Below are positions 7,241 to 52,034 of a stretch of DNA of 54,185 nucleotides, piece after piece. The notes beneath the pieces are model-generated. The model saw nothing but the letters and a program-made list of their open reading frames with translations. It did no database searches and was not told where the DNA came from. Location of the stretch: positions 1 to 54,185 of the forward strand of contig NZ_LYUZ01000089.1 of assembly GCF_001679925.1 (NCBI RefSeq). The letters are read 5' to 3'. Origin of the DNA: Leisingera sp. JC1. Its GTDB lineage: Bacteria > Pseudomonadota > Alphaproteobacteria > Rhodobacterales > Rhodobacteraceae. The translations under genes and the position numbers were made by a program. The number at the start of each line of letters is the position of its first letter. The stretch's first letter is position 1.

Positions 7241-7243
7241 GAC

Positions 7244-9810: not shown

Positions 9811-9878
9811 AGAGAAGCCCCAGATGCTGAATTTCAGGTTTGCAGCAGGATGGACTCCGCAGTCCACATCAGTCAAAC

Positions 9879-9911
9879 TCAATAAACTGTAAAGAACTTC
9901 AGAGTTATTGA
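9879..9911. promoter_or_regulatory. inverted repeat between divergent ALDH and LysR genes, candidate LysR operator
   Basis: TCAATAA at 9879-9885 and TTATTGA at 9905-9911 form a perfect 7-base inverted repeat with a 19-base centre, ending just before the lysR start codon. Such sites between a LysR gene and its divergent target are typical autoregulatory and activation sites. Confidence 0.5.
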
Positions 9912-11611: not shown

Positions 11612-12657
11612 CGCGCCGTCCTTTGCCCGCGCACCAGGATCACCGCAAAGGACGGTGCCCCGATCAGGGCGGTGACAACCCCGATGGGCAGCACCTGGCC
11701 GGGGATGATGATGCGGGAAGCGATGTCGGCGGCGATCAGGAACACGGCGCCGGTCAGTGCCGCGGCAGGCATCAGCCTGCGGTGGCCGGGACCAACCAGG
11801 AACCGCGCCGCATGCGGAATCACCAGGCCGACAAAGCCAATGGAGCCGACGATCGACACCATCACTGCGGTCATCAGCGCGGTGGCAAAGATCAACACCA
11901 CCTGTACCCACCGGACCGGGATGCCAAGCGAGGCGGCAGAGTCGCTGCCAAAGGTGAAAGCGTCCAGCGCGCGGGCATGGAACCGGCAGATCATCCAGCC
12001 CGCCATCGCCAGCGGCACCGCCAGCCACACATCCGGCCAGCGCACGCCGCTGAGGTTGCCCATCAGCCAGAACATGATGCCGCGGGCCTGGTCGGCATTG
12101 GCGGATTTGGCGATGATGAAGGCTGTCAGCGCGTTGAACAGCTGCGAACCCGCTATGCCTGCCAGCACAATCTGCGCCGTAGCCGCGCGGTTGCCCCCTG
12201 CCCCGGCGGCCCGCGCCAGAATGGCGACAAAGCCGAATGCCAGCAGCGCCCCGTTGAAGGCGCCGAAGGACAGCGACAGGGCGCCGCCACCGAGGCCGGC
12301 AATGGTGACCGCCACCGCCCCGGTCGAGGCGCCGGCAGAAATACCAAGAATGTAGGGATCGGCCAGCGCATTGCGCAGCAAGGCCTGCAGCACCACCCCG
12401 GCCACCGCCAGCGCCGCCCCGCAGGCCGCAGCCACCAGCGCCCGCGGCAGCCGATAGCTCCAGATGATGCCCTGGTCCACCGGGTCCACCGGCAGGCCCG
12501 CTCCCGCCAGCTTGTTGGCCAGAACGGACAGGACGAGGTCAGGCGCAAGCGCGGTTTCCCCGATCATTGCGCCTGCCAGAACCGCCGCAGCCAGCACCGG
12601 CAGGGCAAGGCACGCGCCCCGGATGCCCTGCCAGGCTAGTGCGGCGGCTGCACTCAT
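11608..12657 (-). CDS. FecCD/BtuC-type ABC transporter permease
   Basis: 349 residues with about nine or ten membrane spans. The family segments GVVLQALLRNALADPYILG and SIVGSIGFVGLVIPHAARFL (the coupling-helix region that contacts the ATPase) are present. Start and stop each overlap their neighbours by 4 bases (ATGA), so translation is coupled with the binding protein and the ATPase. Members of this family transport iron-siderophores, heme or B12; the riboswitch upstream points to B12. Confidence 0.93.
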   Translation of the reverse strand: MSAAAALAWQGIRGACLALPVLAAAVLAGAMIGETALAPDLVLSVLANKLAGAGLPVDPVDQGIIWSYRLPRALVAAACGAALAVAGVVLQALLRNALADPYILGISAGASTGAVAVTIAGLGGGALSLSFGAFNGALLAFGFVAILARAAGAGGNRAATAQIVLAGIAGSQLFNALTAFIIAKSANADQARGIMFWLMGNLSGVRWPDVWLAVPLAMAGWMICRFHARALDAFTFGSDSAASLGIPVRWVQVVLIFATALMTAVMVSIVGSIGFVGLVIPHAARFLVGPGHRRLMPAAALTGAVFLIAADIASRIIIPGQVLPIGVVTALIGAPSFAVILVRGQRTAR

Positions 12658-13664
12658 TCGCTTGCGCCGATCGCGCTGAGTTCAGCCGCCAGATCCTCCA
12701 GCGCCGAAATGGCGCGGATGGTGGCGTCCATGGCCTGGGCGTCCATTACCACGATGCGGCCGTTCTTGACCGCGTCCATCTGGCTGGCGACCGGGTCATT
12801 GCGCAGGAACTCCAGCTTTTTCTCGTAATCGTCTGCGGCAAAGCGGCGGCGGTCCATGCGGGCAATCACGATCACCGTCGGGTTGGCCTTGGCGATGGTT
12901 TCCCAGCCAACGGTCGGCCATTCCTCGTCCGTTTCGATGACGTTCTTCAGGCCCAGCTGCTGCATCATGTAGCCCGGCGCGCCTTTCTGGCCGGCCACAA
13001 ACGGATCGCTTTCCATTTCAGGCGAGGAGAACCAGAACACGGCGGAGGCATCGTCCAGCGCAACCTCTTGCGCCTTGGCTACAGCCGCGGCCTCGCGCGC
13101 CTTGTAGTCTGCGACCAGCTCTGCGCCTTTTTCGGACTCGCCGAAGATTGCTGCCAGCTCCTCGATGCCCTGATAGAGGCTTTCGGTGGTGAACATCCGG
13201 GTGCGGGTGCCGTCGCCGCCGGTGGTGTTGTCCTTGCCGACGCAATCCGCGGGCATCACATAGGTCGGGATGCCGAGGTCATGGAACTGCTCGCGCTTGG
13301 CGACCACGCCTTCGGGGCCGACATGCCACTCATACTGGGCAGCCACCAGACCCGGGCGCTTGGCTACAACGCTTTCAAAGCTCGGGTCGTTGTCGGCCAG
13401 CCGCTCGACCTTGGCGTTCAGCTCAGCATATTCGGGCAGCACGTCGTTGAACCAGACCGAGGTGCCCAGCACCTTGTCGCCCAGCCCCAGCGCATAGAGC
13501 ACCTCTGTCGCGGCCTGGCCGACGGTCACGGAGGACGCAACCGGCGCCTCGAAGGTGACGGCCTCGCCGCAGTTTTGAATGGTCAGCGGAAAGGTCTCGC
13601 TGGCTGCTGCGGCCTGAGCTGCCGCAACGAAGGAAAGGCCCATCAGGCCGGAACGCAGAAACAT
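12654..13664 (-). CDS. periplasmic binding protein of the FecB/BtuF type
   Basis: 336 residues with an N-terminal signal peptide (MFLRSGLMGLSFVAAAQAAA) and the helical-backbone fold of Peripla_BP_2: VGQAATEVLYALGLGDKVLG, then FESVVAKRPGLVAAQYEW. It captures the substrate in the periplasm and delivers it to the FecCD/FecE-like pair encoded downstream with 4-base overlaps. A cobalamin riboswitch lies 156 bases upstream of the start, suggesting a corrinoid ligand. The family also binds siderophores, so ligand identity is inferred from regulation only. Confidence 0.9.
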   Translation of the reverse strand: MFLRSGLMGLSFVAAAQAAAASETFPLTIQNCGEAVTFEAPVASSVTVGQAATEVLYALGLGDKVLGTSVWFNDVLPEYAELNAKVERLADNDPSFESVVAKRPGLVAAQYEWHVGPEGVVAKREQFHDLGIPTYVMPADCVGKDNTTGGDGTRTRMFTTESLYQGIEELAAIFGESEKGAELVADYKAREAAAVAKAQEVALDDASAVFWFSSPEMESDPFVAGQKGAPGYMMQQLGLKNVIETDEEWPTVGWETIAKANPTVIVIARMDRRRFAADDYEKKLEFLRNDPVASQMDAVKNGRIVVMDAQAMDATIRAISALEDLAAELSAIGASE

Positions 13665-23104: not shown

Positions 23105-25095
23105 AAGCGCATCTGACACGGCAGGCTGCGATCTGCTGGGGGCTGGTGCTTGCCACGATTCTGCTGGGCTGGTTCGGCCGCGACCTGGCCAAGGCGTTGG
23201 ATGCGCGCTGGATGGTCAAGATCCCGTCCTCCTGGGATATTCCGTTCAACACATACATCTCCGCGACCATGGCCTGGCTGATGGAGGAGGCAGCTGTCGG
23301 CCCGGTCTCCTTCACCGATGCCACCCGCGCCATCGCCTGGCTGATTGAGCAGCCCTATGAATTGGCCTTGAACCTGCTGGCACACGGCTTTCTGTTCGAT
23401 CCAGGCCCGGAGCCGCAGGTTCTGCTCCCAGCCGCCAGCTGGATCGCCGTCACCGCTGCGGTGATCTCCCTGGGGCATTACTGCCGCAGTTGGGGTCTGG
23501 CCGCGCTTGTTGGAGCCTGCTTTGCTTATCTCGCGGTTTTCGGGCAATGGGACAGCGCCATGGTCACGCTGGCCTCAGTGCTCATCGCGGTGCCGCTCGG
23601 CGCGGGCGGCGGGCTGCTGGCCGGCATCTGGGCCTACCGCCATCCCCTGGGCGAGCGCATCCTCTCCCCCGTTCTGGACCTGATGCAGACGATCCCGATC
23701 TTCGCTTACCTGGTGCCGATCCTGTTCATGTTCGGCTTTGGCCCGGTATCGGCGCTGGTTGCCACCATCATCTATGCAACCCCGCCGATGATCCGCATCA
23801 CAATCATGGCGCTGAAGGCGGTGGATCCGGAAATCCTCGACTTCGGCCGGATGGCCGGCACCACCCGGCGGCAGCTGATGTGGCGGGTGCTGGTGCCCTC
23901 GGCCAGCCAAAGCCTGATGGTCGGCGTCAACCAGGTGATCATGCTGACGCTCAACATGGTGATCATCGCCTCGATGATCGGCGCGGGCGGGCTTGGCTTC
24001 GACGTGCTGGCCGCGCTGCGCCGCCTCGACATCGGCGCGGGCTTTGAGGCGGGCATCGCCATCGTGGTGCTAGCCATTGCGGTGGACCGGCTGAGCCAGG
24101 CCTTCGCAGAGCGCATGGGCCAAGTCCACCACACAAAGCCTGGTTCTTGGGCCGCCCGGAACAAGCGCACGGTGCTGGTGCTCTGCCTGCTGGCGGTCAC
24201 CTGGGTACTGGGCCGTTTCTCGCCGTTACTGCTGGACTACCCGCAAAGCCAGACCATCACCACCGGCGCTTTCTGGAATGACACCGTCAAGTACTTGAAC
24301 GTGAACTACTTCGATGCGTTCGAGGCCGTGAAAATCTTCTTCCTGCAGTGGTTCCTGCTGCCAATCAAGAAAACCCTGCTGGGCATTCCCTGGCCCTGGG
24401 CCATTGCCATGCTGACGCTGCTTGGCTGGCACGCCGGCGGCTGGAAGCTGGCAGCTCTGTGCGGCGCGATGTCTGCCCTGATTGCGGTCAGCGGCCTGTG
24501 GGCCAAGGCGATGGTCACTGTCTATCTCTGCGGCGCCTCAGTTATCCTTGCCACCCTGATCGGGGTTCCCCTGGGCGTTCTGGCCGCACTGAACCGACGC
24601 GCGGGTATCGCCATCAACCTGCTGATCGACACGCTGCAGACCTTGCCCAGCTTCGTCTACCTGATCCCGGTGGTGATGCTGTTTCGGGTTGGCGACTTCA
24701 CCGCAATGATCGCCATCGTCCTTTATGCGCTGGCACCGGCTGTCCGCTATGCCGCCCACGGGGTGCGCAGCGTCAGCAGCGAGCTGATCGAGGCAGGCCT
24801 GGTATCCGGCTGCACCAAATGGCAGCTGCTGCGCCTGGTTCGGCTGCCGATGGCGCTGCCGGAGATCCTGCTGGGCATCAACCAGACCATCATGCTGGCG
24901 CTGTCGATGCTGGTGATCACCGCGCTGGTCGGCACCCGCGACCTGGGCCAGGAGGTCTATATTGCACTGACCAAGGCCGACACCGGGCGCGGTCTGGTCG
25001 CCGGGCTCGCCATCGCCTTTATCGCCATCATCGCCGACCGGCTGGTCAACGCCGGTGCCCGCGGCGCCCGCATCCGCTTTGGACTGGAGAGCTGA
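23101..25095 (+). CDS. double-length ABC permease (two fused ProW-type domains)
   Basis: 664 residues, about twice a normal ProW-type permease. Two BPD_transp_1 domains occur in tandem, each with its own EAA-type coupling loop: EILDFGRMAGTTRRQLMWRV near residue 250 and ELIEAGLVSGCTKWQLLRLV near 565. Each is preceded by LDLMQTIPIFAYLVP and IDTLQTLPSFVYLIP respectively. One polypeptide can therefore supply both halves of the membrane channel. It overlaps the ATPase gene by 4 bases and ends 2 bases before the kinase start. Confidence 0.93.
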   Translation: MKAHLTRQAAICWGLVLATILLGWFGRDLAKALDARWMVKIPSSWDIPFNTYISATMAWLMEEAAVGPVSFTDATRAIAWLIEQPYELALNLLAHGFLFDPGPEPQVLLPAASWIAVTAAVISLGHYCRSWGLAALVGACFAYLAVFGQWDSAMVTLASVLIAVPLGAGGGLLAGIWAYRHPLGERILSPVLDLMQTIPIFAYLVPILFMFGFGPVSALVATIIYATPPMIRITIMALKAVDPEILDFGRMAGTTRRQLMWRVLVPSASQSLMVGVNQVIMLTLNMVIIASMIGAGGLGFDVLAALRRLDIGAGFEAGIAIVVLAIAVDRLSQAFAERMGQVHHTKPGSWAARNKRTVLVLCLLAVTWVLGRFSPLLLDYPQSQTITTGAFWNDTVKYLNVNYFDAFEAVKIFFLQWFLLPIKKTLLGIPWPWAIAMLTLLGWHAGGWKLAALCGAMSALIAVSGLWAKAMVTVYLCGASVILATLIGVPLGVLAALNRRAGIAINLLIDTLQTLPSFVYLIPVVMLFRVGDFTAMIAIVLYALAPAVRYAAHGVRSVSSELIEAGLVSGCTKWQLLRLVRLPMALPEILLGINQTIMLALSMLVITALVGTRDLGQEVYIALTKADTGRGLVAGLAIAFIAIIADRLVNAGARGARIRFGLES

Positions 25096-25097
25096 CC

Positions 25098-25979
25098 ATG
25101 AGCCAATCCGACCTGCTTCACAAAATCCGCGCACTGCCCATCTGGCAGGGGTATATCACCGTTGACCCGTTGAAAGGCGGCATCACCAACGAGAACTACC
25201 TGGTTGAGGACAGCGCCGGAAAATACGTGGTGCGGGCGGGCGACGACATCCCGCTGCACCAAGTGCTGCGCTTCAACGAACTGGCCGCCAGCCGCGCCGC
25301 CCATGCTGCGGGCCTGTCGCCTGCGGTTCTGCATGCCGAAGGCGGCCTGACGGTGCTGGAGTTCATCAAAAGCCGTACCCTGACCGAGGAAGACGTGCGC
25401 GATCCGGCAATGCTGCCGCGGGTGCTGGAGCTGGTGAAATCCTGCCACCGCGACGTGCCCAAGCATTTGCGCGGCCCGGCGCTGGTGTTCTGGGTGTTCC
25501 ATGTGATCCGGGACTATGCCGCCACCCTGCAGGACAAAGGCAGTCCGCATTCGGCAGCGGCCTCGGAACTGGCGGACATCGGCAGCACTCTGGAACAGGC
25601 GGCAGGCCCGTTCGACATCGTCTTCGGGCACAACGACCTCTTGTGTGGCAATTTCCTCGACGACGGCCAGCGGCTCTGGCTGATCGACTTCGACTATGCC
25701 GGCTTCAACTCGCCGCTGTTCGACCTTGGCGGCCTCGCTTCCAACAACGGGCTGTCGCAGGCGCAAGAGCAATGGCTGCTGGAAACCTACTTCGAGGCGC
25801 CGGTGAGTGATGACCTGCTGCATCGCTACAGCGCCATGAAATGCGCTTCGCTTCTGCGCGAAACCATGTGGAGCATGGTCTCCGAAATCACCTCCGAAAT
25901 CGACTTTGACTACGCGGCCTACACCGCTAGCAACCTCGCGCGCTTCCGCGCGGCGCTTGACGACTTTCAAAACACCTGA
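25098..25979 (+). CDS. choline/ethanolamine-kinase-like phosphotransferase (APH fold)
   Basis: 293 residues. The APH/choline kinase catalytic motif is VFGHNDLLCGNF and the metal-binding DFD triad lies in LWLIDFDYAGFN; the glycine-rich N-lobe is GGITNENYLVE. It resembles LicA-type choline kinases more than antibiotic-modifying enzymes. Its position between a betaine-type importer and an FAD-GcvT demethylase-like enzyme indicates phosphorylation of an imported amino alcohol. The start at 25098 lies 2 bases after the permease stop. A phosphorylated product would be a natural effector for the DeoR regulator (inference). Confidence 0.87.
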   Translation: MSQSDLLHKIRALPIWQGYITVDPLKGGITNENYLVEDSAGKYVVRAGDDIPLHQVLRFNELAASRAAHAAGLSPAVLHAEGGLTVLEFIKSRTLTEEDVRDPAMLPRVLELVKSCHRDVPKHLRGPALVFWVFHVIRDYAATLQDKGSPHSAAASELADIGSTLEQAAGPFDIVFGHNDLLCGNFLDDGQRLWLIDFDYAGFNSPLFDLGGLASNNGLSQAQEQWLLETYFEAPVSDDLLHRYSAMKCASLLRETMWSMVSEITSEIDFDYAAYTASNLARFRAALDDFQNT

Positions 25980-25987
25980 GGACTGAC

Positions 25988-28435
25988 ATGACTGAATTTC
26001 CCTCAACTGCCAAGGCAGTCATCATTGGCGGCGGCATCATCGGCTGCTCCACCGCCTACCACTTGGCCAAGCTAGGCTGGACCGACACCATTCTGCTGGA
26101 GCGGAAAAAGCTGACCTCGGGCACCACCTTCCACGCCGCCGGGCTGGTCGGGCAGCTGCGCTCGAACGCCAATATCACCCAGCTCTTGGGCTATTCGGTC
26201 GATCTCTACAATAAGATCGAAGAGGAGACCGGCCTGGGCACCGGCTGGAAGATGAACGGCGGGTTGCGGCTGGCATGCAATGAGGAACGCTGGACAGAGG
26301 TCAAGCGCCAGGCCACCACCGCGCATTCCTTCGGTCTGGAGATGGAGCTGCTGACCCCAAAAGAGGCGCAGGAACTGTGGCCGCTGATGGATATCTCCGA
26401 CGTCATCGGCGCGGCATTCATGCCGACCGACGGTCAGGCTAATCCCTCCGACATCACCCAGGCGCTGGCCAAGGGCGCGCGGATGGCCGGGGCGAAGATC
26501 TTCGAGGATACCAAGGTCACTGATATCGAGCTCGAAAACGGCAAGATACGCGCCGTCATCACCGAACGTGGCCGTATCGAATGCGAGAAGGTGATCTGCT
26601 GCGCCGGCCAGTGGACCCGCACCTTTGCCAAGCGGTTCGGGGTCAACGTGCCGCTGGTGCCGATGGAGCACCAGTATATGGTGACGGAGCCGTTCGAGGG
26701 CGTCCCCTCGGGCCTGCCCACCCTGCGCGACCCGGACCGGCTGACCTACTACAAGGAGGAAGTCGGCGGGCTGGTGATGGGCGGCTATGAGCCGAATCCG
26801 ATCCCCTGGGCCACGGACGGCATCCCGCAGGGTTTCCACTACACCCTTCTCGACAGCAACTTCGACCATTTTGAGCAGCTTATGGAGCTGGCGCTTGGCC
26901 GTGTGCCTGCCTTGGAGCATGCCGGCATCAAAACCCTGACCAACGGGCCGGAAAGTTTCACACCAGACGGCAACTTCATCATCGGCGAGGCGCCAGAGCT
27001 GCGGAACTTCTATGTCGGCGCGGGCTTCAACGCGTTTGGCATCGCCGCGGGCGGCGGCGCAGGCATGGCGCTGGCGGAATGGGTAATAAATGGTGAACCG
27101 CCGTTTGACCTCTGGTCCGCTGACATCCGCCGCTTTGGCCGCACGCATTTCGACACCGACTGGGTCCGCACCCGCACGGTCGAGGCTTACGGCAAACATT
27201 ACACCATGGCGTGGCCGCATGAGGAGCACGACAGCGGCCGCCCCTGCCGCAAGTCGCCGCTTTACGACACGCTGAAAAGCCAAGGCGCCTGTTTCGGCGA
27301 GAAGCTCGGCTGGGAGCGCCCGAACTGGTTTGCCGATGCCGCCAGGGGCGAGACACCTAAAGACGTCTACAGCTTCGGCCGCCAGAACTGGTTCGAGGCG
27401 GTGGGCCGCGAGCACAAGGCCGCGCGCGAGGCGGCGGTGCTGTATGATCAGACGTCCTTTGCCAAATTCGCGCTGAAAGGCCCGGATGCGGTCGCCGCGA
27501 TGAACTGGATCTGCGCCAATGACGTGAACAAGCCGGTGGGATCTCTGATCTACACCCAGATGCTGAATGACAAGGGCGGCATTGAATGCGATCTCACGGT
27601 GGGCCGTGTCGCGCATGACGAGTTCTACATCGTCACCGGCACCGGCTACGCCACCCATGACTTCGACTGGATCCGCCGCAACATTCCCAACGGTATGAAC
27701 TGCCAGCTGTTCGACATTACCTCCTCCAACGCGGTGCTGTCGCTGATGGGGCCGAAAGCGCGCGGCATCCTCGCCGCTGTTACGCGCGACGATGTCTCCA
27801 ACGACGGTTTCAAGTTCGGCACCATCCGCACCATCGGTATCGCAGGCTGCCCAGTGCAGGCGCTGCGCGTGACCTATGTGGGCGAGCTGGGCTGGGAGCT
27901 GCACCTGCCGGTGGAATACGCCCAGACCGTCTATGCCGCACTGATGGAGGCAGGCAAACCGCACGGCCTGGTCAATGCCGGCTACCGCTCGATCGAATCC
28001 CTGCGCCTTGAAAAAGGTTACCGCGCCTGGGGCTCGGATATCGGCCCCGATCACACCCCGTTCGAGGCCGGGCTCGGCTGGGCGGTGAAGCTCAGGAAGA
28101 ACATCCCCTTCAAGGGCCGCACAGCCGCCGAAGCGCAGAAGGCAGAGGGCGTCAAGAAGATGCTCGCCTGTTTCACCACCGATCCCGGCGTGGTGCTCCT
28201 TGGCCGCGAAACCATCTACCGCAATGGCAAGCGCGCCGGCTGGCTCACCTCCGGCGGTTACGGCTACACCGTCGGACGGTCCATTGGCTACGGCTACATC
28301 CGCAACCCCGATGGCGTGGATGCCGAATACGTGCTGAGCGGGGACTACGAGCTGGAGGTCGCCACAGAACGCGTCCCCTGCAACGTGAAGCTCTCACCTC
28401 TCTATGATCCGTCGATGAGCCGGGTGAAGATCTGA
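25988..28435 (+). CDS. FAD-dependent oxidoreductase fused to GcvT, dimethylglycine/sarcosine dehydrogenase-like
   Basis: 815 residues. Residues 1-370 form a DAO-type FAD domain (AVIIGGGIIGCSTAYHLAKL; SGTTFHAAGLVGQ, where the histidine is the likely covalent flavin link). About 370-425 is the FAO_M linker, and 430-805 the GcvT and GcvT C-terminal folate domains (YVGELGWELHLPVEYA, ESLRLEKGYRAWGSDIGPDH). Such enzymes oxidatively remove an N-methyl group and pass it to tetrahydrofolate. It starts 8 bases after the kinase stop and is last in the operon. Substrate could be dimethylglycine, sarcosine or a related N-methyl compound. Confidence 0.93.
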   Translation: MTEFPSTAKAVIIGGGIIGCSTAYHLAKLGWTDTILLERKKLTSGTTFHAAGLVGQLRSNANITQLLGYSVDLYNKIEEETGLGTGWKMNGGLRLACNEERWTEVKRQATTAHSFGLEMELLTPKEAQELWPLMDISDVIGAAFMPTDGQANPSDITQALAKGARMAGAKIFEDTKVTDIELENGKIRAVITERGRIECEKVICCAGQWTRTFAKRFGVNVPLVPMEHQYMVTEPFEGVPSGLPTLRDPDRLTYYKEEVGGLVMGGYEPNPIPWATDGIPQGFHYTLLDSNFDHFEQLMELALGRVPALEHAGIKTLTNGPESFTPDGNFIIGEAPELRNFYVGAGFNAFGIAAGGGAGMALAEWVINGEPPFDLWSADIRRFGRTHFDTDWVRTRTVEAYGKHYTMAWPHEEHDSGRPCRKSPLYDTLKSQGACFGEKLGWERPNWFADAARGETPKDVYSFGRQNWFEAVGREHKAAREAAVLYDQTSFAKFALKGPDAVAAMNWICANDVNKPVGSLIYTQMLNDKGGIECDLTVGRVAHDEFYIVTGTGYATHDFDWIRRNIPNGMNCQLFDITSSNAVLSLMGPKARGILAAVTRDDVSNDGFKFGTIRTIGIAGCPVQALRVTYVGELGWELHLPVEYAQTVYAALMEAGKPHGLVNAGYRSIESLRLEKGYRAWGSDIGPDHTPFEAGLGWAVKLRKNIPFKGRTAAEAQKAEGVKKMLACFTTDPGVVLLGRETIYRNGKRAGWLTSGGYGYTVGRSIGYGYIRNPDGVDAEYVLSGDYELEVATERVPCNVKLSPLYDPSMSRVKI

Positions 28436-28650: not shown

Positions 28651-29562
28651 CTACTGCGGGCCTGTGCCAGCGGCCATGTGCTCAAGCAGCTCAAGGCAGC
28701 GTTGAGCGGACGGGTTGGCCCGTCCGAACCTGGTGAGCTTTGCGTAAAGCCGGGTGTTTCTTGAGTGCCAATCCACAGGCATTTCAACCAGGGAACCCCT
28801 GGCAAGGTAGGAATCGGCAAAGCTGCGCCAGCCCAGTCCCAGGCCGGCGCCGGCCGCGGCGGCCTCCAGCAGATAGACATAGCTGTCGAACTCCTCTCTG
28901 ACCTGCCAGCCGGCAAAGTCAGGATGCGCCCGCTGCCAGTCCCGCCAAGTCATCCAGCCGAAATTGTCCTTGCTCAGTTCCAGCAGCGGCGGCGGGGCAC
29001 AGGAACTTTCAAGCGCTTCCTTCGCCTGCTCGATCAGTTCAGGCGTGCCGACCGGTTTGATTTCCTCCTCGCAAACCACAACGTGCTTTTCCGCCGGAGG
29101 GAGTGAGGAGTACTCGAACACGATATCAGCCCCAGTATCAATTGCCGACCGGGTGAGGTTGTATTCGGCAGTCAGCAAGCGCAGCTCAACTTCCGGACCC
29201 AGAGCTTTACGCAGCTGGCCATGGCGCGGCATCAGCAAAAGATGTGAAACCGAATGCGAACAGACCAAGGTGACCAGGTTACCGGTCCGCGCCAGGCCAT
29301 GGACCGAATCCTGCAGCATGTCGAGGCCTTGTACCACCCCGGCATAGAACTGCTGCCCCTTTCTTGTCAGGCGGATAGGTGAACTTCCCCGGTCAAACAG
29401 CAGTGTGCCGAAGCGGATTTCCAGGTTGCGGATATGGCGGCTTATGGCGGGCTGTGACGTGTTCAGCTCCTCCGCCGCGCGGGCAAACCCCTGAAGGCGG
29501 GCCACTGCTTCAAATGCAGCCAGCGCATTGAAGGATGGAAGAGCGTATTTCCGTTCCGACAT
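28651..29562 (-). CDS. LysR-family transcriptional regulator
   Basis: 303 residues from MSERKYALPSFNALAAFEAV; upstream in-frame codons exist but add an unlikely tail. The helix-turn-helix is ARAAEELNTSQPAISRHIRN, and the region LTRKGQQFYAGV is typical of GcvA-like LysR proteins. Divergent to the racemase-like/sulfotransferase/FrhB operon, with about 106 bases between starts, so it is the likely regulator of that operon. The 215 bases between its stop and the FAD-GcvT gene contain nothing I can name. Confidence 0.93.
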   Translation of the reverse strand: MSERKYALPSFNALAAFEAVARLQGFARAAEELNTSQPAISRHIRNLEIRFGTLLFDRGSSPIRLTRKGQQFYAGVVQGLDMLQDSVHGLARTGNLVTLVCSHSVSHLLLMPRHGQLRKALGPEVELRLLTAEYNLTRSAIDTGADIVFEYSSLPPAEKHVVVCEEEIKPVGTPELIEQAKEALESSCAPPPLLELSKDNFGWMTWRDWQRAHPDFAGWQVREEFDSYVYLLEAAAAGAGLGLGWRSFADSYLARGSLVEMPVDWHSRNTRLYAKLTRFGRANPSAQRCLELLEHMAAGTGPQ

Positions 29563-29576
29563 ATCAATTTCGATAT
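29561..29576. promoter_or_regulatory. near-palindrome at the lysR start, candidate operator
   Basis: ATATCAATTTCGATAT is an inverted repeat (ATATC...GATAT with an AT-rich centre) covering the lysR start codon and lying about 95 bases before the divergent operon. This position suits autoregulation by the LysR protein. Confidence 0.4.
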
Positions 29577-29668
29577 GCCTATATGAACGCAAAAGCAATG
29601 GAAATCCATTGAGAACCCGGGGAAGCTCCTGTGCGAAAGACACCTCTAACCAACTGGCGGATTGCAGC

Positions 29669-30505
29669 ATGGGCGACTACGAAAAACCACGTAAATGGGC
29701 AGATCCCAAAGTGAAACTCTTCCCGCACCAGGTTGGGTTTACCTGTCCGCCGCATGATTTCGATGCAGCCCCTTCGGACTTCCTCCGCATGGCGCCGCAC
29801 AGTGTCGGCGCCCATGGCTGGATGCTGCATGTGCCCGATTATGCGCACCGGCTGGAGCAGCGGAAAAAGAACTTCGGCATGCTTGAGGATTTTCTGGAGT
29901 GCATGGCGAACAACGGGGCCGACGTCTGCGGGCAGGTGGGATCAAATTGGGTGCACGCCTCGGGCCTGGGCGTCGAAGGGATCCGCCAGCACTGCGAAAT
30001 GCTGAGCGACAAATACGAAACTCCGTTTCACATGGCCGGCTACGCAATGGTCGAAGCCCTGCGTGCAAGCAATGTCGAGAAGGTGGCGCTGAATGCCTGC
30101 TACCATCCTGCCAGCTGGTATCAGGGTACCGTCAGCTTCCTGAAAGAAGCCGGATTCGACGTGATCTGGGCCGGGAACTTCTACGATCAGGGCTGGTTCG
30201 CCTCGCAGCAGGAGGTCGACGACTGCATCTGGTGTTTCGACGAAGAGCTGATCTGGAAGTCCTTTGACTACACTGCCGAACAGGCGCCAAGTGCCGACGC
30301 CTACCTGATCAACGGGATGAGCAACTACCGCCGCCCTTCGGACGGGATTGCGCAGCGCCCGGTCCACTACGCCGCTGCGCTGGAGGAGCGCTTGGGCAAG
30401 CCGGTCATCGGCCATGACATCGCTCTCTACTGGCGGATTTTCAAAACCCTCGGCATAGCGCCGGAAACCGAACAGGGCAGTTTGCTCTCCTCTCTGAAAG
30501 ACTGA
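29669..30505 (+). CDS. Asp/Glu racemase-superfamily protein (maleate isomerase/arylmalonate decarboxylase-like), both catalytic Cys replaced
   Basis: 278 residues. The overall pattern matches the arylmalonate decarboxylase/maleate isomerase branch: VGFTCPPHDFDAAPSDFLRM, then NACYHPASWYQGTVSFLKEA, then YAAALEERLGKPVIGHDIAL. In my by-eye alignment the first catalytic cysteine position is glycine (GQVGSNWVHASG) and the second is also glycine (YLINGMSNYRR). A cysteine four residues before the first site might substitute. Racemization or decarboxylation by the usual chemistry is therefore doubtful. First gene of a three-gene operon; the sulfotransferase starts 2 bases after its stop. Start 29669 was chosen because an upstream extension overlaps the LysR promoter. 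Confidence 0.72.
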   Translation: MGDYEKPRKWADPKVKLFPHQVGFTCPPHDFDAAPSDFLRMAPHSVGAHGWMLHVPDYAHRLEQRKKNFGMLEDFLECMANNGADVCGQVGSNWVHASGLGVEGIRQHCEMLSDKYETPFHMAGYAMVEALRASNVEKVALNACYHPASWYQGTVSFLKEAGFDVIWAGNFYDQGWFASQQEVDDCIWCFDEELIWKSFDYTAEQAPSADAYLINGMSNYRRPSDGIAQRPVHYAAALEERLGKPVIGHDIALYWRIFKTLGIAPETEQGSLLSSLKD

Positions 30506-30507
30506 CC

Positions 30508-31263
30508 ATGCACAAGATCGTTGCCCTCTGGGCCATCCCCCGCTCCACCTCCACCGCCTTCGAATGGATGATGCGGCAGCGCGGTGATCTGGACTGCCTG
30601 CACGAACCTTTTGGCGAAGCCTGGTATCAGGGCGAGGACCCGCTCTGGCCGCGGTTCAGGGAAGGCGAAAAGACAACGCCCGGTCTGACACTGGACAGTG
30701 TGTGGGATGATATCCGCGAGCGGGCGCATAAAGGTCCAGTCTTCATCAAGGACTTTCCGCATTACATCAATCACATGTGGGACGCGGAGTTTCTGTCGCA
30801 TTTCACCCACGCCTTCCTGATCCGCGACCCCGCCAAGACCATCACGTCTATGCACCACAAGTGGCCCGACTTTGACGAATTGGAAGTAGGTTTTCCCGAG
30901 CAGCGGGCCCTGTTCGACCTTCTGACGGCGCTGAATGGCACACCTCCGCCGGTTGTCGACAGTGACGATCTGCTGGAATACCCGGAGGAGGTGACACACG
31001 CCTTCTGCGATGCAGTTGACATCCCCTTCATACAAGAGGCGCTGAGCTGGGAAGCCGGAGGCGACCCCTCTGCCCACAGCTGGTGGGACGGCGGGTCGTT
31101 TCATGCAAACTTGGCCCAATCCACCGGCCTGACGCCGCAGAGGCGCAAGTACATCGATCTTAAGGACACGCCGGAACGGGTTCAACGGGTGCACCGCCGG
31201 ATGAAGCCGCACTACGATCACATGTACAAGCACCGCCTGCGTGTGCGGCAATCCGCAGGTTAA
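30508..31263 (+). CDS. sulfotransferase-family protein
   Basis: 251 residues. The 5'-phosphosulfate loop of PAPS-dependent sulfotransferases is seen at the N-terminus (VALWAIPRSTSTAFEWMM) and the 3'-phosphate site in HAFLIRDPAKTITSMHHKWP. FIKDFPHYINHMW also fits. It should transfer sulfate from PAPS to an alcohol or amine. Alternatively it may be one of the PAPS-fold proteins used for other activation chemistry. It sits between a racemase-superfamily protein and an FrhB-like iron-sulfur protein, both with tight spacing (2 and 18 bases), so the three probably act on one compound. The acceptor is unknown. Confidence 0.88.
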   Translation: MHKIVALWAIPRSTSTAFEWMMRQRGDLDCLHEPFGEAWYQGEDPLWPRFREGEKTTPGLTLDSVWDDIRERAHKGPVFIKDFPHYINHMWDAEFLSHFTHAFLIRDPAKTITSMHHKWPDFDELEVGFPEQRALFDLLTALNGTPPPVVDSDDLLEYPEEVTHAFCDAVDIPFIQEALSWEAGGDPSAHSWWDGGSFHANLAQSTGLTPQRRKYIDLKDTPERVQRVHRRMKPHYDHMYKHRLRVRQSAG

Positions 31264-31281
31264 AGCAGGAGTATTTGGAGA

Positions 31282-32481
31282 ATGCGGCAGCCCGGTTCAG
31301 TGAAAGAAGTCGTCGAAGCCGGCCTATGCATCGGCTGCGGGCTGTGCGAGGCGATGGCGCCGGAACGCTGGAAAATGGCCTACACGCCGCAAGGCCGCCT
31401 GCGCCCGTCCAGGATAGGCGCGGGATCTGATGCGGAAATCCTGCAAGCCTGCCCGGGGGCAGTTGCCCGTCCCAACAGCGAATCCGCCCCGCTCGGGGAC
31501 GCAGTCTGGGGCGGCTATCACCGGATGCAGGAAGCCTGGGCCAGCGATCCGGACACCCGGTTCCGGGCAGCTACGGGTGGTGTTCTGACCGCACTTGCCG
31601 CGCACTTGCTCCGGTCCGGCCAGGCACGTTTCATCCTGCATTGCGCCGCCGACCCGCAAGCGCCGATGCGATCGGTCTGGTGCCTCAGCGGCACGCCCAG
31701 CCAGCTCTTGCAGCGCGCAGGATCGCGCTATGGCCCAAGCGACACGCTGGCCGGGCTGCAAGCGGCGCTTGACCGCGATGAGCCTTTTGCCGTTATTGCA
31801 AAACCCTGCGATGCCGGTGCGCTGCGCGAAGTTTCTAAATCCGATCAACGGCTGGCACGGAACCTCGTGGGTGTTCTCGTCATGGTTTGCGGCGGCGCAT
31901 CGGATCTGGGCAAGTCGCAAGCCGTGCTCGATGAATACAAGCTGTCCGAAACAGACGTCGCACTGTTCCGCTACCGGGGCCACGGCAACCCAGGACCGAC
32001 AAGGATCGAAACGCACGACGGCCGCGCCTTCCAGAAAACTTATGGCGAGATGTGGGCTGACGAAAGCGGCTGGCGTATCCAGACCCGCTGCAAGATCTGT
32101 CCCGATGCCTTGGGGGAAGCTGCGGATGTAGCAGCCGCGGATATATGGCCGGATGCCAGTCCTGATGGCGATGATGAGGGCTTCAACGGGGTAATCACAC
32201 GGACAGCCGCCGGCGAGCGGCTCTTCCGCGCCGCGTGCGAAGCCGGGAGCCTGACCGCCGGCGCAGACATCACCCCCCGCCAGTTCGACACCTTTCAGCC
32301 GCATCAGGTCCGCAAGAAACACGCCTTGGCCGCGCGGCTCAGAGGCATGGATGCGGCGGGCTCGCCGGTGTACCGGCATGAAGGTCTAAGGCTGGAAACA
32401 CTCGATACCCGCGATGCGCAGGAGGAGGCGGGAACCCTGCAGCGAGTCCGCAACGGCAGGTTCCATGAAAAACTTCCTTAG
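31282..32481 (+). CDS. FrhB/FdhB-like (coenzyme F420 hydrogenase beta-subunit family) iron-sulfur flavoprotein
   Basis: 399 residues. An N-terminal 4Fe-4S site uses Cys16, 19 and 22 (CIGCGLC) and Cys57 (QACPGA). The FrhB N domain (FRAATGGVLTALAAHLLRSG) and FrhB/FdhB C domain (CKICPDALGEAADVAAADIW, two more cysteines) follow. In methanogens and actinobacteria such proteins reduce F420; in other bacteria they act as FAD/Fe-S reductases in unrelated pathways. Rhodobacteraceae are not known to make F420, so this is presumably an F420-independent redox enzyme. AGGAG upstream supports the start. Last gene of the operon. Confidence 0.9.
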   Translation: MRQPGSVKEVVEAGLCIGCGLCEAMAPERWKMAYTPQGRLRPSRIGAGSDAEILQACPGAVARPNSESAPLGDAVWGGYHRMQEAWASDPDTRFRAATGGVLTALAAHLLRSGQARFILHCAADPQAPMRSVWCLSGTPSQLLQRAGSRYGPSDTLAGLQAALDRDEPFAVIAKPCDAGALREVSKSDQRLARNLVGVLVMVCGGASDLGKSQAVLDEYKLSETDVALFRYRGHGNPGPTRIETHDGRAFQKTYGEMWADESGWRIQTRCKICPDALGEAADVAAADIWPDASPDGDDEGFNGVITRTAAGERLFRAACEAGSLTAGADITPRQFDTFQPHQVRKKHALAARLRGMDAAGSPVYRHEGLRLETLDTRDAQEEAGTLQRVRNGRFHEKLP

Positions 32482-33109: not shown

Positions 33110-33979
33110 CTATTGGGTTTGCAACCATCTCGAAAACGCAGCGGCGCAGTCTTGGGAAGCAGCTTTGCGCGGGCGCACCAGAAAGTAGCCGTAGTCCTGC
33201 AGCACATGCGGTGACAGGCGGAACAGCTTTGCTTCTTCCAGTTCCCGCTCGATCAGCGTGTCCATCAGGGCGATCCCCTGACCATCAGAAACCGCCTGAA
33301 CACGCACATTGGGGTCAGGGATGATCAGCGTGTCCCGGCGCGTCCGGTGCGGCAGCCCCGCGGCATTCAGCCAGTCGGTCCAGGCATCGCTGTCATCATG
33401 ATCACGCAGCAGCGTAAATGTTGAAACCGCATGCTCCCAGCCGAGCCGCTCCACCGTTTCCATTGCTGCAGCGTTGCCTGCAGGAAAGGCCGGGCACGGC
33501 AGGAACGGTATAACCTCGCCATCTCCCCATTGCCCGCTTCCCCAACGGATTGCGATATCAACACCTTGCGCTTCAAGGTCGAACAGCCGGATCATCGGTT
33601 GCAGCCGCAGCTGGATATCCGGATGCTCCTGCATGAAGGACATCAGCCGCGGCGACAGCCAGCGGGCGGCGAAATAGGTGGAGACACCCACTGTCAAGGT
33701 TCTGGCAGAGATCCCTTTGAGGGCCAGAATGCCGACCTCAATCTCTTCATAGAGGCTTTGGCAGGCAGCCAGCAGCTTGAGCCCGCCCGGCGTCATCTCC
33801 ACCCCGCGGGCGTTGCGCTGAAACAGCGCGAACCCCAGATCCGCCTCCAGCGTTTTCACCTGATAGCTGACCGCGCCCTTGGTCATGTTCAGCGCCCCGG
33901 CCGCATCTGAAAAACTGCGGTAGCGGGCGATCTCAGCAAACAGGCGCAGGCTGTCGTGATGGCGGAATTCTACGGCCAT
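33110..33979 (-). CDS. LysR-family (GcvA-like) transcriptional regulator
   Basis: 289 residues starting MAVEFRHHDSLRLFAEIARY; the longer in-frame start would run into the promoter of the divergent gene. The helix-turn-helix is FSDAAGALNMTKGAVSYQVK and the effector domain contains LFDLEAQGVDIAIRWGSGQW, a GcvA-type signature. It faces the MttB-family gene with 118 bases between starts, where an ATATT/AATAT inverted repeat lies at 34041-34055. It is the probable regulator of that methyltransferase operon. Confidence 0.93.
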   Translation of the reverse strand: MAVEFRHHDSLRLFAEIARYRSFSDAAGALNMTKGAVSYQVKTLEADLGFALFQRNARGVEMTPGGLKLLAACQSLYEEIEVGILALKGISARTLTVGVSTYFAARWLSPRLMSFMQEHPDIQLRLQPMIRLFDLEAQGVDIAIRWGSGQWGDGEVIPFLPCPAFPAGNAAAMETVERLGWEHAVSTFTLLRDHDDSDAWTDWLNAAGLPHRTRRDTLIIPDPNVRVQAVSDGQGIALMDTLIERELEEAKLFRLSPHVLQDYGYFLVRPRKAASQDCAAAFSRWLQTQ

Positions 33980-34097
33980 GATGCAAAACGTATAAATTCT
34001 CTGAACGTTGCGGGCAAATAATATCGATTGCTGGCGGGAAATATTCTGAAAATATGGGTCACGAGGCACATCCTCGGGAGTTTCATCGTTGGGAAAT

Positions 34098-35639
34098 ATG
34101 AACGCCGGCACCCATATCACCCAGCGCGGAAAGTCACGCCGGGGGCGGCTGACCCGGCACAACGCACCACAGGCGGCACCGGTGTACAGGCGCCGTCAGA
34201 TCCCAGCCTACGATCTGCTGGATGAGACCGCACTCCGGCGCATCGAAGCTCAGTCGGACTGGATCCTGGAGCATATCGGCGTCGAATTCCGCGGTGATGA
34301 CACGGCACTTGCGCTGTTTGCCGCAGCCGGAGCGCGCGTCGACGGTGTCCGGGTCCGCTTCGAACAAGGCCATGTGCGCCAGCTTTGCAAAACCGCTCCC
34401 GCCGAATTCCAGCTGCATGGCCGTGATTCCGCCCGCACGGTGGCCTTGGGTGGGGACAACCTGGTGCTGATGCCCGGCTACGGCTCGCCCTTTGTCACCG
34501 ACCTGGAGCAAGGCCGCCGCTATGCCACGCTGGAGGATTTCGAAAACTTCGCGAAGCTTTCGCATATGTCGCCCGTCCTGCACCATACCGGCGGTACTGT
34601 CGTCGAGCCGACCGATGTGCCGGTGAACAAGCGGCATCTGGACATGATGCTGGCCCATCTCACCCTGTCGGACAAACCCTTCATGGGCGGTGTGACATCC
34701 GCGCAGGGCGCACAAGACAGTATAAAAATGGCCCGGCTGGCCTTCGGTCCGGAATTCCTGGACCGAAACGCGGTGATGCAGGCCAATATCAACGTTAATT
34801 CGCCGCTGATCTTTGACGGGGTGATGTCCGCCTCCCTGTGTATCTATGCGGCGGCCAACCAATGCGTCTGCATCTCGCCTGCCATCTTTGCTGGCGCCAT
34901 GGGTCCCCTCTCACCGGCGGCGGTTGCCGCCCAGACACTGGCCGAGGCGATGGTGGGCATCGCCCTTAGCCAGCTGGTGCGCCCCGGCTGCCCGGTGGTT
35001 TTCGGCAGCTTTCATTCCTCGATGAACCTGCGCACCGGCGCGCTGACGTTTGGTTCGCCCGAGGCGAACCTGACCACCATGGCGCTGAGCCAGCTTGGCC
35101 GCAGGCTGGGGGTGCCGGTGCGATCCGGCGGCGGTCAAGTCACAGCTTCCAATGCCGCCGACGGCCAGGCGATGCAGGACAGCGCCGGTGCGATGTGGGC
35201 AACCCTTCTGTCCGGCGGCCATCAGGTCTGGCACGCGGCTGGCTGGCTCGAAGGCGGGCTGGTGATGTCCTACGAAAAGTTCGTGATGGACCTCGACCAT
35301 TGCGGCGCGATGCTGAGGATGCTGCAGGGGTTTGGCACGGACGACGAGGCCTTTGGCCGCGATGCCTACGCCGAGGCAGGTCCGGGTGAAAACTTCCTGT
35401 CTACCAGCCACACCCTGCGCCACTACACAACCGCCAATTTTGAACCGCAGGTGCCCGAAGGCGGCCCCTTTGAAACCTGGGACGAGAACGGCCGCCTGAC
35501 CGCTGATCAGCGGGCCGCAGCCCGATGGCGGCAGATGCTGAAGGAATATCAGCCGCCGGAAATGAACGGCAGCACCCGCACTGCCCTGAATGACTTCGTG
35601 GCGGAGCGCAAAGCCGCCATGCCCGACGAATGGTATTGA
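34098..35639 (+). CDS. trimethylamine methyltransferase family protein (non-pyrrolysine MttB, COG5598)
   Basis: 513 residues from the ATG at 34098; a TTG 9 bases upstream is possible. Typical segments are DWILEHIGVEFRGD, LVLMPGYGSPFVTDLE, FENFAKLSHMSPVLHHTGG and ALTFGSPEANLTTMALSQLG. The frame is open with no internal amber, so it is not a pyrrolysine enzyme. Non-pyrrolysine members demethylate betaines (glycine betaine, proline betaine, carnitine) using a corrinoid protein in anaerobes. No corrinoid protein gene is seen here, so the methyl acceptor in this presumably aerobic host is open. A six-TM ABC gene, now broken, begins 16 bases downstream. Confidence 0.92.
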   Translation: MNAGTHITQRGKSRRGRLTRHNAPQAAPVYRRRQIPAYDLLDETALRRIEAQSDWILEHIGVEFRGDDTALALFAAAGARVDGVRVRFEQGHVRQLCKTAPAEFQLHGRDSARTVALGGDNLVLMPGYGSPFVTDLEQGRRYATLEDFENFAKLSHMSPVLHHTGGTVVEPTDVPVNKRHLDMMLAHLTLSDKPFMGGVTSAQGAQDSIKMARLAFGPEFLDRNAVMQANINVNSPLIFDGVMSASLCIYAAANQCVCISPAIFAGAMGPLSPAAVAAQTLAEAMVGIALSQLVRPGCPVVFGSFHSSMNLRTGALTFGSPEANLTTMALSQLGRRLGVPVRSGGGQVTASNAADGQAMQDSAGAMWATLLSGGHQVWHAAGWLEGGLVMSYEKFVMDLDHCGAMLRMLQGFGTDDEAFGRDAYAEAGPGENFLSTSHTLRHYTTANFEPQVPEGGPFETWDENGRLTADQRAAARWRQMLKEYQPPEMNGSTRTALNDFVAERKAAMPDEWY

Positions 35640-50280: not shown

Positions 50281-51942
50281 TTAGCCGGAGAGATCTCCGG
50301 CGGCCTCCAGCTTTTCACCGGCCCGCTCGCGCAGGCCGTCCCGGTAGATCGCTTTGAACAGGGCCAGGCACATCAGCACCATCACCAGCGAAAACGGCAA
50401 GGCACCGATGACCATGGCGGTCTGGATTGCCTTCAGCCCTCCGACCAGCAGCAGGGCCGCCACCACCAGGCCAAGCGCCACACCCCAGAACAGGATATGC
50501 GGGCGCGCCTTGGGGCCTTCGTCGCCGGCCGCGTTGATGGTGTTGACGATCAGCACCGCTGAGTCCGCCGAGGTGACCAGATAGGTCATCAGCAGCACCA
50601 CGATCAGCACCGCCATCAGCCAGCCAAGCACCGGCGACAGCATCAGCTGGGTCATGGCAAAGATCTTGTCGCCGTCCGGAACCGAGAAGATCGCACCGTT
50701 CGCGCTGCCGTTCAGCTCCATGTCAATCGCGGTCCCGCCCGCAAAGGAGAACCAGACGAAACACATCAGTGCCGGGGCGATGACCGCGCCGATCACAAAC
50801 TCGCGGATGGTGCGGCCCTTGGAAATGCGGGCGAGGAACAGGCCGACAAAGGGGGCAAACGCCACCCACCAGGCCCAGTAAAACACCGACCAGCCGCCCT
50901 GCCAGCCCTCCAGTTTGGTTGCCACGGACCCCTCGACGCCATCGCCCCGGTAGACGCTAAAGACCATCGACGGCAGTTCCGCCAGATACGTCCACAGCCC
51001 GCTGAACAGCGCGTTGAGGCCAAACCAGGTGGAGCCGAACAGCAGGAAGAAGCACAGCAGGAAAGTGCTGAGCACCATGTTGAGGTTGGAGAGCCACTTG
51101 ATCCCTTTGCCGACACCGGACAGTGCCGAAAGGGTGGAGGCGCCCATGATGATCAGGACCGCCACGATGATGCCGAGGCCGGAGGCGGTGCCCTCGTCGT
51201 TCAGCAGCCAGTCGCCGATGCCGATGCGGGCCATGCCGGAGACAAACTGCTCGACGCCGAACCCCAGCATCTGCGCCACGCCCAGGATGGTGGCGATGAC
51301 GGCAAAGATATCGACCGCGTGGCCCAAGGGGCCGGAGAGCCTTTCCCCGAACAGCGGCGCCAGCGACGACCGGATGGTCAGCGGCAGGCCGCGGCGGTAG
51401 GCAAAGAAGCCCAGCCCAAGACCTGCAATGGCATAGGACGCCCAGGCGGTGAAGCCCCAGTGCAAGTAGGACCATTTGTAGGCGTTCAAATAGTTGTTCA
51501 GCTCCCCGCCATCGGCCAGCCCCTGGATCACATCCGGGTTGTTCTTGAAATGATAGATCGGCTCAGCCACCGCCCAGGTCAGCATGCCGACGCCGATGCC
51601 GGCACCGAACATCATCGAAAACCAGGAAAACCGCGAAAACTCCGGCTTGTCATCCGGCTGGCCCAGTTTCAGCCGCCCTGCGGCAGGCCAGAGCACCAGC
51701 CCGATGCTGGCCAGCACAAAGGCCGCCATCACATAGACATACCAGGCGGCGAAATTGGCCAGGATCAGGCTGTTGAGCCCCGCCAGGACCGAACTGGCCT
51801 GGTCCGGGAAGGCGACGGCCCAGAGCACAAGCCCTGCGACCGCCAGTTTCGAGCTTACCGTGACATCAATACTGAAGCCCTCGTAGAACCCTTTGTCCGC
51901 CGTCTTGATCGGCAGTTCTGTCAGGGGTGGTTTCACCGACAT
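50281..51942 (-). CDS. BCCT-family transporter of the choline-sulfate locus (BetT-like)
   Basis: 553 residues, twelve membrane spans expected. Substrate segment FGAGIGVGMLTWAVAEPIYH, tryptophan box GGWSVFYWAWWVAFAPFVG, and TSADSAVLIVNTI are intact. GGGAGA lies before the ATG at 51942. Encoded between betC and betI, it most likely imports choline or choline-O-sulfate. It is closely related to the BCCT at 2002-3825 (same N-terminal SxKxPxTxLxIKTxDxGFYxG style) but lacks that protein's extra loop. Ion coupling cannot be read reliably. Confidence 0.94.
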   Translation of the reverse strand: MSVKPPLTELPIKTADKGFYEGFSIDVTVSSKLAVAGLVLWAVAFPDQASSVLAGLNSLILANFAAWYVYVMAAFVLASIGLVLWPAAGRLKLGQPDDKPEFSRFSWFSMMFGAGIGVGMLTWAVAEPIYHFKNNPDVIQGLADGGELNNYLNAYKWSYLHWGFTAWASYAIAGLGLGFFAYRRGLPLTIRSSLAPLFGERLSGPLGHAVDIFAVIATILGVAQMLGFGVEQFVSGMARIGIGDWLLNDEGTASGLGIIVAVLIIMGASTLSALSGVGKGIKWLSNLNMVLSTFLLCFFLLFGSTWFGLNALFSGLWTYLAELPSMVFSVYRGDGVEGSVATKLEGWQGGWSVFYWAWWVAFAPFVGLFLARISKGRTIREFVIGAVIAPALMCFVWFSFAGGTAIDMELNGSANGAIFSVPDGDKIFAMTQLMLSPVLGWLMAVLIVVLLMTYLVTSADSAVLIVNTINAAGDEGPKARPHILFWGVALGLVVAALLLVGGLKAIQTAMVIGALPFSLVMVLMCLALFKAIYRDGLRERAGEKLEAAGDLSG

Positions 51943-52034
51943 TGCGCGTCTCCCAGTTGGTAGGTTTTTCACTGCCCTGCGAAGGGATTTTGAGGATTGT
52001 TCTTTTTCCCCGCGCACTCTCGTTGCAGTTGCGC

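Follow-up and report, generated by a model that had tools for sequence, protein, structure and literature searches.

A racemase-fold protein lacking catalytic cysteines is paired with a sulfotransferase in osmolyte-catabolism neighbourhoods: a possible sulfonation-elimination module

Introduction

Sulfotransferases that depend on 3'-phosphoadenosine 5'-phosphosulfate (PAPS) are known chiefly for building and decorating molecules, and retinol dehydratase, a sulfotransferase whose reaction ends as a dehydration, performs both steps in one protein on an animal lipid substrate. Asp/Glu racemases, maleate isomerases and Alma-type lyases are defined by two catalytic cysteines, one per lobe, and the flavin iron-sulfur enzymes HCAR and BciB reduce carbon substrates. 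Here we describe an operon that encodes relatives of all three kinds side by side, in a stretch of 54,185 nucleotides from Leisingera sp. JC1 (contig NZ_LYUZ01000089.1, hereafter the window): AMD, with the fold of Asp/Glu racemases and arylmalonate decarboxylase (AMDase), the sulfotransferase SULF and the FrhB-type protein FrhB. AMD and SULF form a conserved pair in the context of osmolyte catabolism, for which we tentatively propose a sulfonation-elimination role.

In CurM and Ols sulfotransferase-thioesterases, according to PMC3903477, the sulfonated hydroxyl serves as a leaving group before the decarboxylative loss of sulfate. The algal dimethylsulfoniopropionate (DMSP) lyase Alma is named as a member of the Asp/Glu racemase superfamily in PMC10686828, and PMC3338564 links dddQ of Ruegeria pomeroyi and Roseovarius nubinhibens to a gene of the MDR superfamily. 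An AMD-sulfotransferase system was not found described in the literature searched (open-licence papers, no bioRxiv preprints).

Results

Conservation of the AMD-SULF pair

We obtained 230 relatives of AMD from a scan of one genome per species and kept the best 80 loci (L025-L104), which belong to alphaproteobacteria, gammaproteobacteria and a few other metagenome-assembled genomes, mostly marine by name. Many of the loci are clipped by contig ends, so that absences are to be read as lower bounds; for 50 of the 80, the flanks reach 5 kb or more in either direction. Neighbouring genes were picked with our own open reading frame (ORF) heuristic, which missed AMD in L084 and SULF in L082 (where it was placed in cluster c7) and L084, all three being present by tblastn, and each neighbour cluster was named from one representative.

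SULF lies 3' of AMD on the same strand in all 80 loci, with a median gap of 4 bases (30 bases or fewer in 73 of the 80); the SULF frame of L052 has two internal stops. Among 295 genomes of the family, 22 showed some match to AMD: 17 full-length and close (56-100% identity), one cut by a contig end and four weak. A close SULF (55-100%) was found in exactly the 17 genomes with full-length AMD and adjoins it in each, other best sulfotransferase matches reaching 42% at most. None of the 17 SULF frames has an early stop; broken SULF genes were considered and rejected, as the stops flagged in 10 of the 17 matches are the natural stop wherever tblastn shows one. The only AMD match in the genome of the window is the window copy.

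The first-pass annotation had read the three genes as one unit and had proposed to look for them in other genomes. All three are adjacent in 11 of the 80 loci, so the trio does occur elsewhere and its absence, which would have refuted the first-pass reading, did not come true, but the conserved unit is the AMD-SULF pair, FrhB being an accessory, optional member.

Co-evolution of AMD and SULF was rejected as a line of evidence, since their distances correlated at only 0.35 (n=79); the values for AMD and FrhB were 0.51 (n=19) and, for the 11 adjacent trios, 0.79, none of these being corrected for phylogeny. Plasmid-borne spread was likewise dropped, only relatives at about 25% having been found, on three Planktothrix plasmids; on the one inspected, no sulfotransferase is annotated within 8 kb (gene table incomplete). 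Genome G024 contains a distant AMD relative, 33% identical to its closest counterpart in the family, and the surrounding 19.5 kb (L106) are free of SULF homologues.

AMD lacks both catalytic cysteines

The predicted two-lobed racemase fold spans the whole AMD chain, which places it in the Asp/Glu racemase/AMDase superfamily. AMD scored 25.6 bits to the Pfam domain Amdase (PF17645), just below the cut-off of 25.9, and 19.3 bits to the NCBIfam AMDase model, against a cut-off of 225. Both catalytic-cysteine positions are glycine (G91 and G216) and invariant across 56 sequences; both alignments used, A2 with 56 rows and A3 with 46, were our own selections from the 80 loci and the window. AMD thus does not have the cysteine pair of Asp/Glu racemases, maleate isomerases and Alma-type lyases, and with G216 at the C-lobe cysteine position and its low NCBIfam score it does not fit AMDase either. 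Because both positions are glycine, AMD is, to judge by its sequence, no ordinary racemase, isomerase or AMDase, and a racemase or isomerase role was rejected on this ground.

SULF and the supply of activated sulfate

SULF scored 61 bits to Sulfotransfer_5 (PF19798; cut-off 23.2), the domain of a sulfotransferase, and its predicted fold is closest, of the chains compared, to the curacin/olefin-synthase sulfotransferases. P11-R12-S13-T14-S15-T16 and R106/S114, which we take to be the PAPS-binding segments, are at least 97% conserved in 79 sequences. Directly 3' of SULF, 6 of the 80 loci (L030, L037, L043, L045, L047 and L056) carry a fusion of ATP sulfurylase and adenosine 5'-phosphosulfate (APS) kinase, whose representative reached 1040 bits (cut-off 669), and APS-kinase proteins occur in 8 further loci, in 5 of them within the same-strand run. 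An additional gene of the inositol-phosphatase family is present in L030 and L047; the L030 copy, the only one scored, matches CysQ above its cut-off (271 bits, cut-off 229), the phosphatase of 3'-phosphoadenosine 5'-phosphate (PAP). These are the genes that a busy PAPS-dependent sulfotransferase needs, and because they sit in some copies of the operon, SULF is very probably PAPS-dependent; they also agree with the sulfate activation or transfer suggested at first pass. In the window's own genome APS kinase is encoded elsewhere.

In one Ruegeria atlantica genome, represented by two contigs (L051 and L056), AMD is flanked by two sulfotransferases, the second of which (48-49% to SULF; L051 7651-8394, L056 3604-4347) lies immediately 5' of AMD.

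FrhB is an accessory member

FrhB scored 52 bits to FrhB_FdhB_N and 85 bits to FrhB_FdhB_C in Pfam and has eight cysteines that are invariant in 20 sequences, in line with the FrhB/FdhB/HCAR iron-sulfur flavoproteins; two [4Fe-4S] clusters are expected from this sequence. The gene was found in 19 of the 80 loci by the ORF heuristic, in 14 of them in the same-strand run and in 11 directly after SULF (a count that takes in L082, by tblastn), and in 20 loci by tblastn, the additional one, in L051, being fragmentary and located where the contig ends. FrhB proteins of the same subfamily (at least 65%) occur in 3 of the 295 family genomes, all with AMD-SULF (P 2e-4). F420-dependent redox chemistry seems unlikely, as the CofD model (TIGR01819), the one model of F420 synthesis searched for, gave no hit in the genome (99.6% complete). 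No NCBIfam model scored above its cut-off for AMD, SULF or FrhB.

A probable dedicated regulator and its putative site

The divergent LysR gene, described at first pass as dedicated to the operon and associated with a palindrome, likely starts at 29562, not at 29670. The palindrome CATATC-N6-GATATG has a single match in the window at up to one mismatch (0.04 expected), occurs exactly once in the 5.19 Mb genome and is found in exact form in 10 other fetched loci, always at the same place upstream of AMD. Together with the block AAAGCAATGGA it recurs, with variations, across most of 22 aligned upstream regions, a chosen set that took in the window, L028 and loci where a LysR homologue runs divergently; the L028 region lacks the palindrome and several others have it in imperfect form. 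The block is probably a promoter or a second regulator contact. Since the exact palindrome is unique in this genome and keeps its position upstream of AMD in relatives, the operon appears to be served by a regulator of its own that acts at one site, in keeping with the dedicated LysR of the first pass. The best NCBIfam match of this LysR is the choline-sulfate regulator, far below cut-off (159 of 325 bits).

Osmolyte-catabolism neighbourhood

Among the 80 loci, neighbouring genes encode a Rieske oxygenase (30 loci), an MR/MLE protein of the enolase superfamily (28), a zinc alcohol dehydrogenase (Zn-ADH; 24), a SIS-domain protein (23) and a DAO-GcvT enzyme (22), followed by aldehyde dehydrogenase (ALDH) and CMD (13 each), GFA (12), an OYE-type flavoprotein (8), Ldh_2 (7), a DMSP_lyase-family cupin (7), an M24 protein nearest DddP (6), a BCCT transporter (5) and MttB (4 and 5, in two clusters). 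The SIS-domain cluster is probably of the RpiR regulator type, judged by size and gene position, the SIS domain alone having matched. At least three of Rieske, MR/MLE, Zn-ADH and DAO-GcvT occur in 14 of the 50 loci with long flanks. Acidiferrobacter-type gammaproteobacteria and roseobacters do not arrange these genes in the same order, which speaks against the copying of a single island. The Rieske, DAO-GcvT, MR/MLE, Zn-ADH and cupin neighbours support the marine osmolyte metabolism first suggested for the operon, and the assignment of AMD-SULF to the context of N-methylated osmolyte catabolism is well supported. The MDR-superfamily gene beside dddQ reported in PMC3338564 fits the Zn-ADH beside AMD-SULF; the strains Ruegeria pomeroyi DSS-3 and Roseovarius nubinhibens ISM do not appear by name in the set of 80 loci.

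The fullest set was found in L107 (genome G194), where a first part comprises CMD, BCCT, ALDH, FrhB, DsbA-like and DAO-GcvT genes and a divergent part SIS/RpiR, Rieske, sulfatase, AMD, SULF, Zn-ADH, MR/MLE, a DMSP_lyase-type cupin and two further MR/MLE genes, the cupin being named by its similarity to the scored cupin of L096. The sulfatase, between Rieske and AMD (11766-13166), is choline-sulfatase-like (226 bits, cut-off 433).

In the window's own genome, contig C1 (L114 8244-19434) carries genes for an aminotransferase, three MR/MLE proteins, Zn-ADH, DAO-GcvT, SIS/RpiR, Rieske and ALDH, with a DMSP_lyase-family cupin between the first two MR/MLE genes; from its gene content this is a putative DddQ-type cluster, with more genes than a DMSP lyase would require. 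No AMD-SULF was seen in the C1 stretch read and, because of this and because the sole AMD match of the genome is that of the window, the pathway appears to be split across contigs, the AMD-SULF module going with a recurrent N-methyl-osmolyte (DddQ-type) cluster that here lies on another contig. Control of the C1 cluster by the same LysR was considered and rejected, no good copy of the palindrome being present there (two sites with two mismatches, 0.3 expected). A second DMSP_lyase-family cupin is encoded in this genome at C81:64735.

Of the 295 family genomes, 18 have an MR/MLE orthologue, and the 17 with AMD-SULF account for 14 of them, where 1 was expected; in 6 of these 14 (G000, G073, G082, G139, G200 and G249) it lies on a different contig from AMD-SULF or more than 1 Mb away (contig ends unbridged). 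The MR/MLE neighbours in L025 match the solved proteins 2qdd and 2rdx, which we take to come from Roseovarius nubinhibens, at 600 and 686 bits. In a comparison with betaine epimerase, one representative reached 430.9 bits against 500, with 157-171 bits to 2pmq/4h2h, presumably betaine epimerase. M24 proteins lie near AMD-SULF in L064, L060, L066, L071, L075 and L030, the L064 member being nearest DddP (254 bits, cut-off 600), and would represent a second DMSP-lyase-type family in this neighbourhood. A homarine pathway was considered as well, and nothing in the literature searched links homarine to these genes.

Operon layout and other genes of the window

The ORF coordinates confirm the three-gene operon as first described, with codirectional ORFs and junctions of 2 bases between AMD and SULF and 18 bases between SULF and FrhB (Table 1). 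The remark that no other enzyme lies nearby did not hold, since the operon is flanked by a DAO-GcvT enzyme, which stops 0.2 kb short of the end of the LysR gene, and by an MttB-family protein.

Table 1. Coordinates of the operon, its regulatory elements and other features of the window.
Feature	Position	Strand	Remarks
AMD, Asp/Glu-racemase/arylmalonate-decarboxylase-fold protein, 278 aa	29669-30505	+	No catalytic cysteines (G91, G216); paired with SULF in 80/80 loci
SULF, PAPS-type sulfotransferase (Sulfotransfer_5), 251 aa	30508-31263	+	Pfam; sulfate-activation genes in homologous operons
FrhB-type iron-sulfur flavoprotein, 399 aa	31282-32481	+	Accessory member; eight invariant Cys
LysR-type regulator, divergent	28651-29562	-	Likely start 29562
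LysR-type palindromic site (putative), CATATC-N6-GATATG	29560-29577		Overlaps LysR start codon; sole exact copy in genome
Conserved block AAAGCAATGGA	29592-29602	+	3' of palindrome; from alignment of 22 upstream regions
DAO-GcvT enzyme	25988-28435
Small-molecule kinase, possibly choline-type	25092-25979		Distant GntI likeness (133 bits, cut-off 357); between betaine-type ABC transporter and DAO-GcvT
Second LysR, divergent from MttB-family protein	33110-35639		MttB-family protein begins at 34089; 225 of 525 bits to trimethylamine methyltransferase model
Choline-sulfatase beside BCCT transporter	50284-53987	-	901 bits, cut-off 433
BCCT/Ldh_2/DUF3726/562-aa protein/M19 peptidase/ALDH block	2005-9882		ALDH nearest alpha-ketoglutaric semialdehyde dehydrogenase (478 of 770 bits)
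562-aa protein	5555-7240		No Pfam (E 0.001) or NCBIfam (E 1e-30) match for its family

The choline-sulfatase and its BCCT transporter predict that choline-O-sulfate is used by products encoded in the same window. The block that starts with BCCT also adjoins AMD-SULF in L031, L032 and L034, with parts of it in L069, L078 and L079, and the 562-aa protein is kept within the BCCT/Ldh_2 block (78% to the L031 copy).

Discussion

We tentatively read AMD-SULF(-FrhB), at somewhat less than an even chance, as a module for sulfonation followed by elimination that serves to break down a hydroxylated, N-methylated (betaine-like) osmolyte. SULF, judged by its fold and the PAPS-supply genes, would move a sulfonate group from PAPS to a hydroxyl on the substrate or on a pathway intermediate, turning it into a leaving group; AMD would then hold the carboxylate and the sulfate ester in its two-lobed pocket and drive the loss of sulfate, giving a C=C bond. 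CO2 might leave at the same time, as it does when curacin/olefin-synthase chains are terminated, or the step might be a simple beta-elimination. FrhB, where present, is probably a two-cluster iron-sulfur flavoprotein; it might reduce the C=C bond, the weakest step of the model, or otherwise supply electrons. The freed sulfate would be re-activated to PAPS and CysQ would clear PAP, with the dedicated LysR switching the operon on from its single site. The adjoining or, in this genome, separate DddQ-type cluster would encode what the remaining steps require: Rieske and DAO-GcvT enzymes to remove N-methyl groups, MR/MLE proteins to epimerise or dehydrate, and dehydrogenases.

Sulfonation by SULF is well supported as a predicted activity. 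Elimination of sulfate by AMD is what we infer from the loss of its cysteines, and we prefer it because without them the usual proton relay is missing, and a carbanion that expels sulfate needs no proton donor; the 'reduction or elimination' of the first-pass annotation would thereby be narrowed to sulfate as the leaving group. The substrate is likely a hydroxylated betaine, because of the Rieske, DAO-GcvT, BCCT and (hydroxy)proline-type MR/MLE neighbours, and carnitine or hydroxyproline betaines are candidates only.

The operon could instead serve biosynthesis or storage, SULF making a stable sulfated osmolyte or signal of the choline-O-sulfate kind from a precursor prepared by AMD, with the catabolic neighbours degrading the same compounds. 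Sulfate activation within the operon would suit bulk synthesis, a choline-sulfatase-like gene stands beside AMD in L107 and a true choline-sulfatase in the window, and the regulator has its distant likeness to the choline-sulfate regulator. We nevertheless regard this as unlikely: the Rieske, DAO-GcvT and MttB neighbours and the uptake-type transporters look catabolic, no exporter is present among the annotated neighbour clusters (exporters were not searched for as such), and sulfation of a choline-like alcohol does not need an Asp/Glu-racemase-fold partner. The gene order AMD-SULF-FrhB would also suit a pathway that begins with AMD, working as a decarboxylase or isomerase independent of cysteine; SULF would then sulfonate the product (on O, N or S), so that a reactive intermediate is trapped or detoxified ahead of its reduction by FrhB. 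AMD does keep positions that we take to line the AMDase pocket (P27/P28, S92-N93 and Y145). This order of events, to which we assign a decidedly low probability, leaves unexplained the loss of both cysteines used by decarboxylases or isomerases of the fold, and a detoxifying sulfonation would hardly need its own ATP sulfurylase.

Formation of a C-S bond, with AMD making a carbanion or enediolate whose carbon SULF sulfonates to a sulfonate, appears very improbable. The fold of AMD stabilises enediolates in relatives, as is established for AMDase, and the Ldh_2 neighbour is nearest the sulfolactate-dehydrogenase family, but its 190 bits are far below the cut-off of 500, and we know of no precedent for PAPS-dependent C-sulfonation by this fold. 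That the three genes serve separate pathways in a chance or historical operon can hardly be credited; FrhB is indeed missing from most loci as fetched, but the AMD-SULF adjacency in 80 of 80 loci, their co-occurrence in 17 of 17 genomes and the single dedicated LysR site refute this for AMD and SULF, FrhB being left outside that refutation.

The pair itself is real and conserved, and sulfonation-activated elimination, the preferred reading, is a kind of chemistry already known. A further step, possible but doubtful, is that it embodies a new catabolic logic, in which PAPS is spent to make a hydroxyl of an abundant marine osmolyte a recyclable sulfate leaving group, removed with or without CO2 by a cysteine-free racemase-fold lyase, the alkene perhaps being reduced by FrhB. 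Such a route, on the same doubtful footing, would amount to a dehydroxylation pathway independent of coenzyme A and radicals and linked to DddQ-type clusters. In the literature searched, attachment and then removal of sulfate is chemistry not yet described for nutrient breakdown. If this is true, a conserved sulfotransferase inside the osmolyte-breakdown clusters of roseobacters, SAR116 and gammaproteobacteria would imply that sulfate serves in marine carbon and nitrogen cycling as a throwaway leaving group, at the cost of ATP. AMD-SULF also offers an entry point for tests of DddQ-type clusters, whose gene content goes far beyond what a DMSP lyase calls for, and AMD extends a well-studied enzyme superfamily by a branch without the cysteines.

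Retinol dehydratase is listed among the fold matches of SULF (1x8k and 1fml). With the AMDase superfamily AMD shares the fold, but it has no cysteine at either catalytic position, scores below the Pfam and NCBIfam cut-offs and shows G-S-N where, in what we take to be the AMDase numbering, AMDase has G-T-S. FrhB resembles the HCAR, BciB and FrhB flavin iron-sulfur reductases in its FrhB_FdhB_N and FrhB_FdhB_C domains and conserved cysteines, and differs in that no CofD was found in this genome. The DddQ clusters of roseobacters share the DMSP_lyase-family cupin, MR/MLE and Zn-ADH neighbours, whereas AMD and SULF are unmentioned in the consulted part of PMC3338564 and the cupin occurs in just 7 of the 80 AMD loci. 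Finally, CurM and Ols contain the nearest sulfotransferase fold among the chains compared to SULF, and their sulfonated hydroxyl as leaving group is the logic proposed here; no thioesterase or polyketide synthase domain is present in the trio or in the annotated neighbour-cluster representatives, and AMD and SULF differ from them as free-standing proteins, with an AMDase-fold partner and catabolic neighbours.

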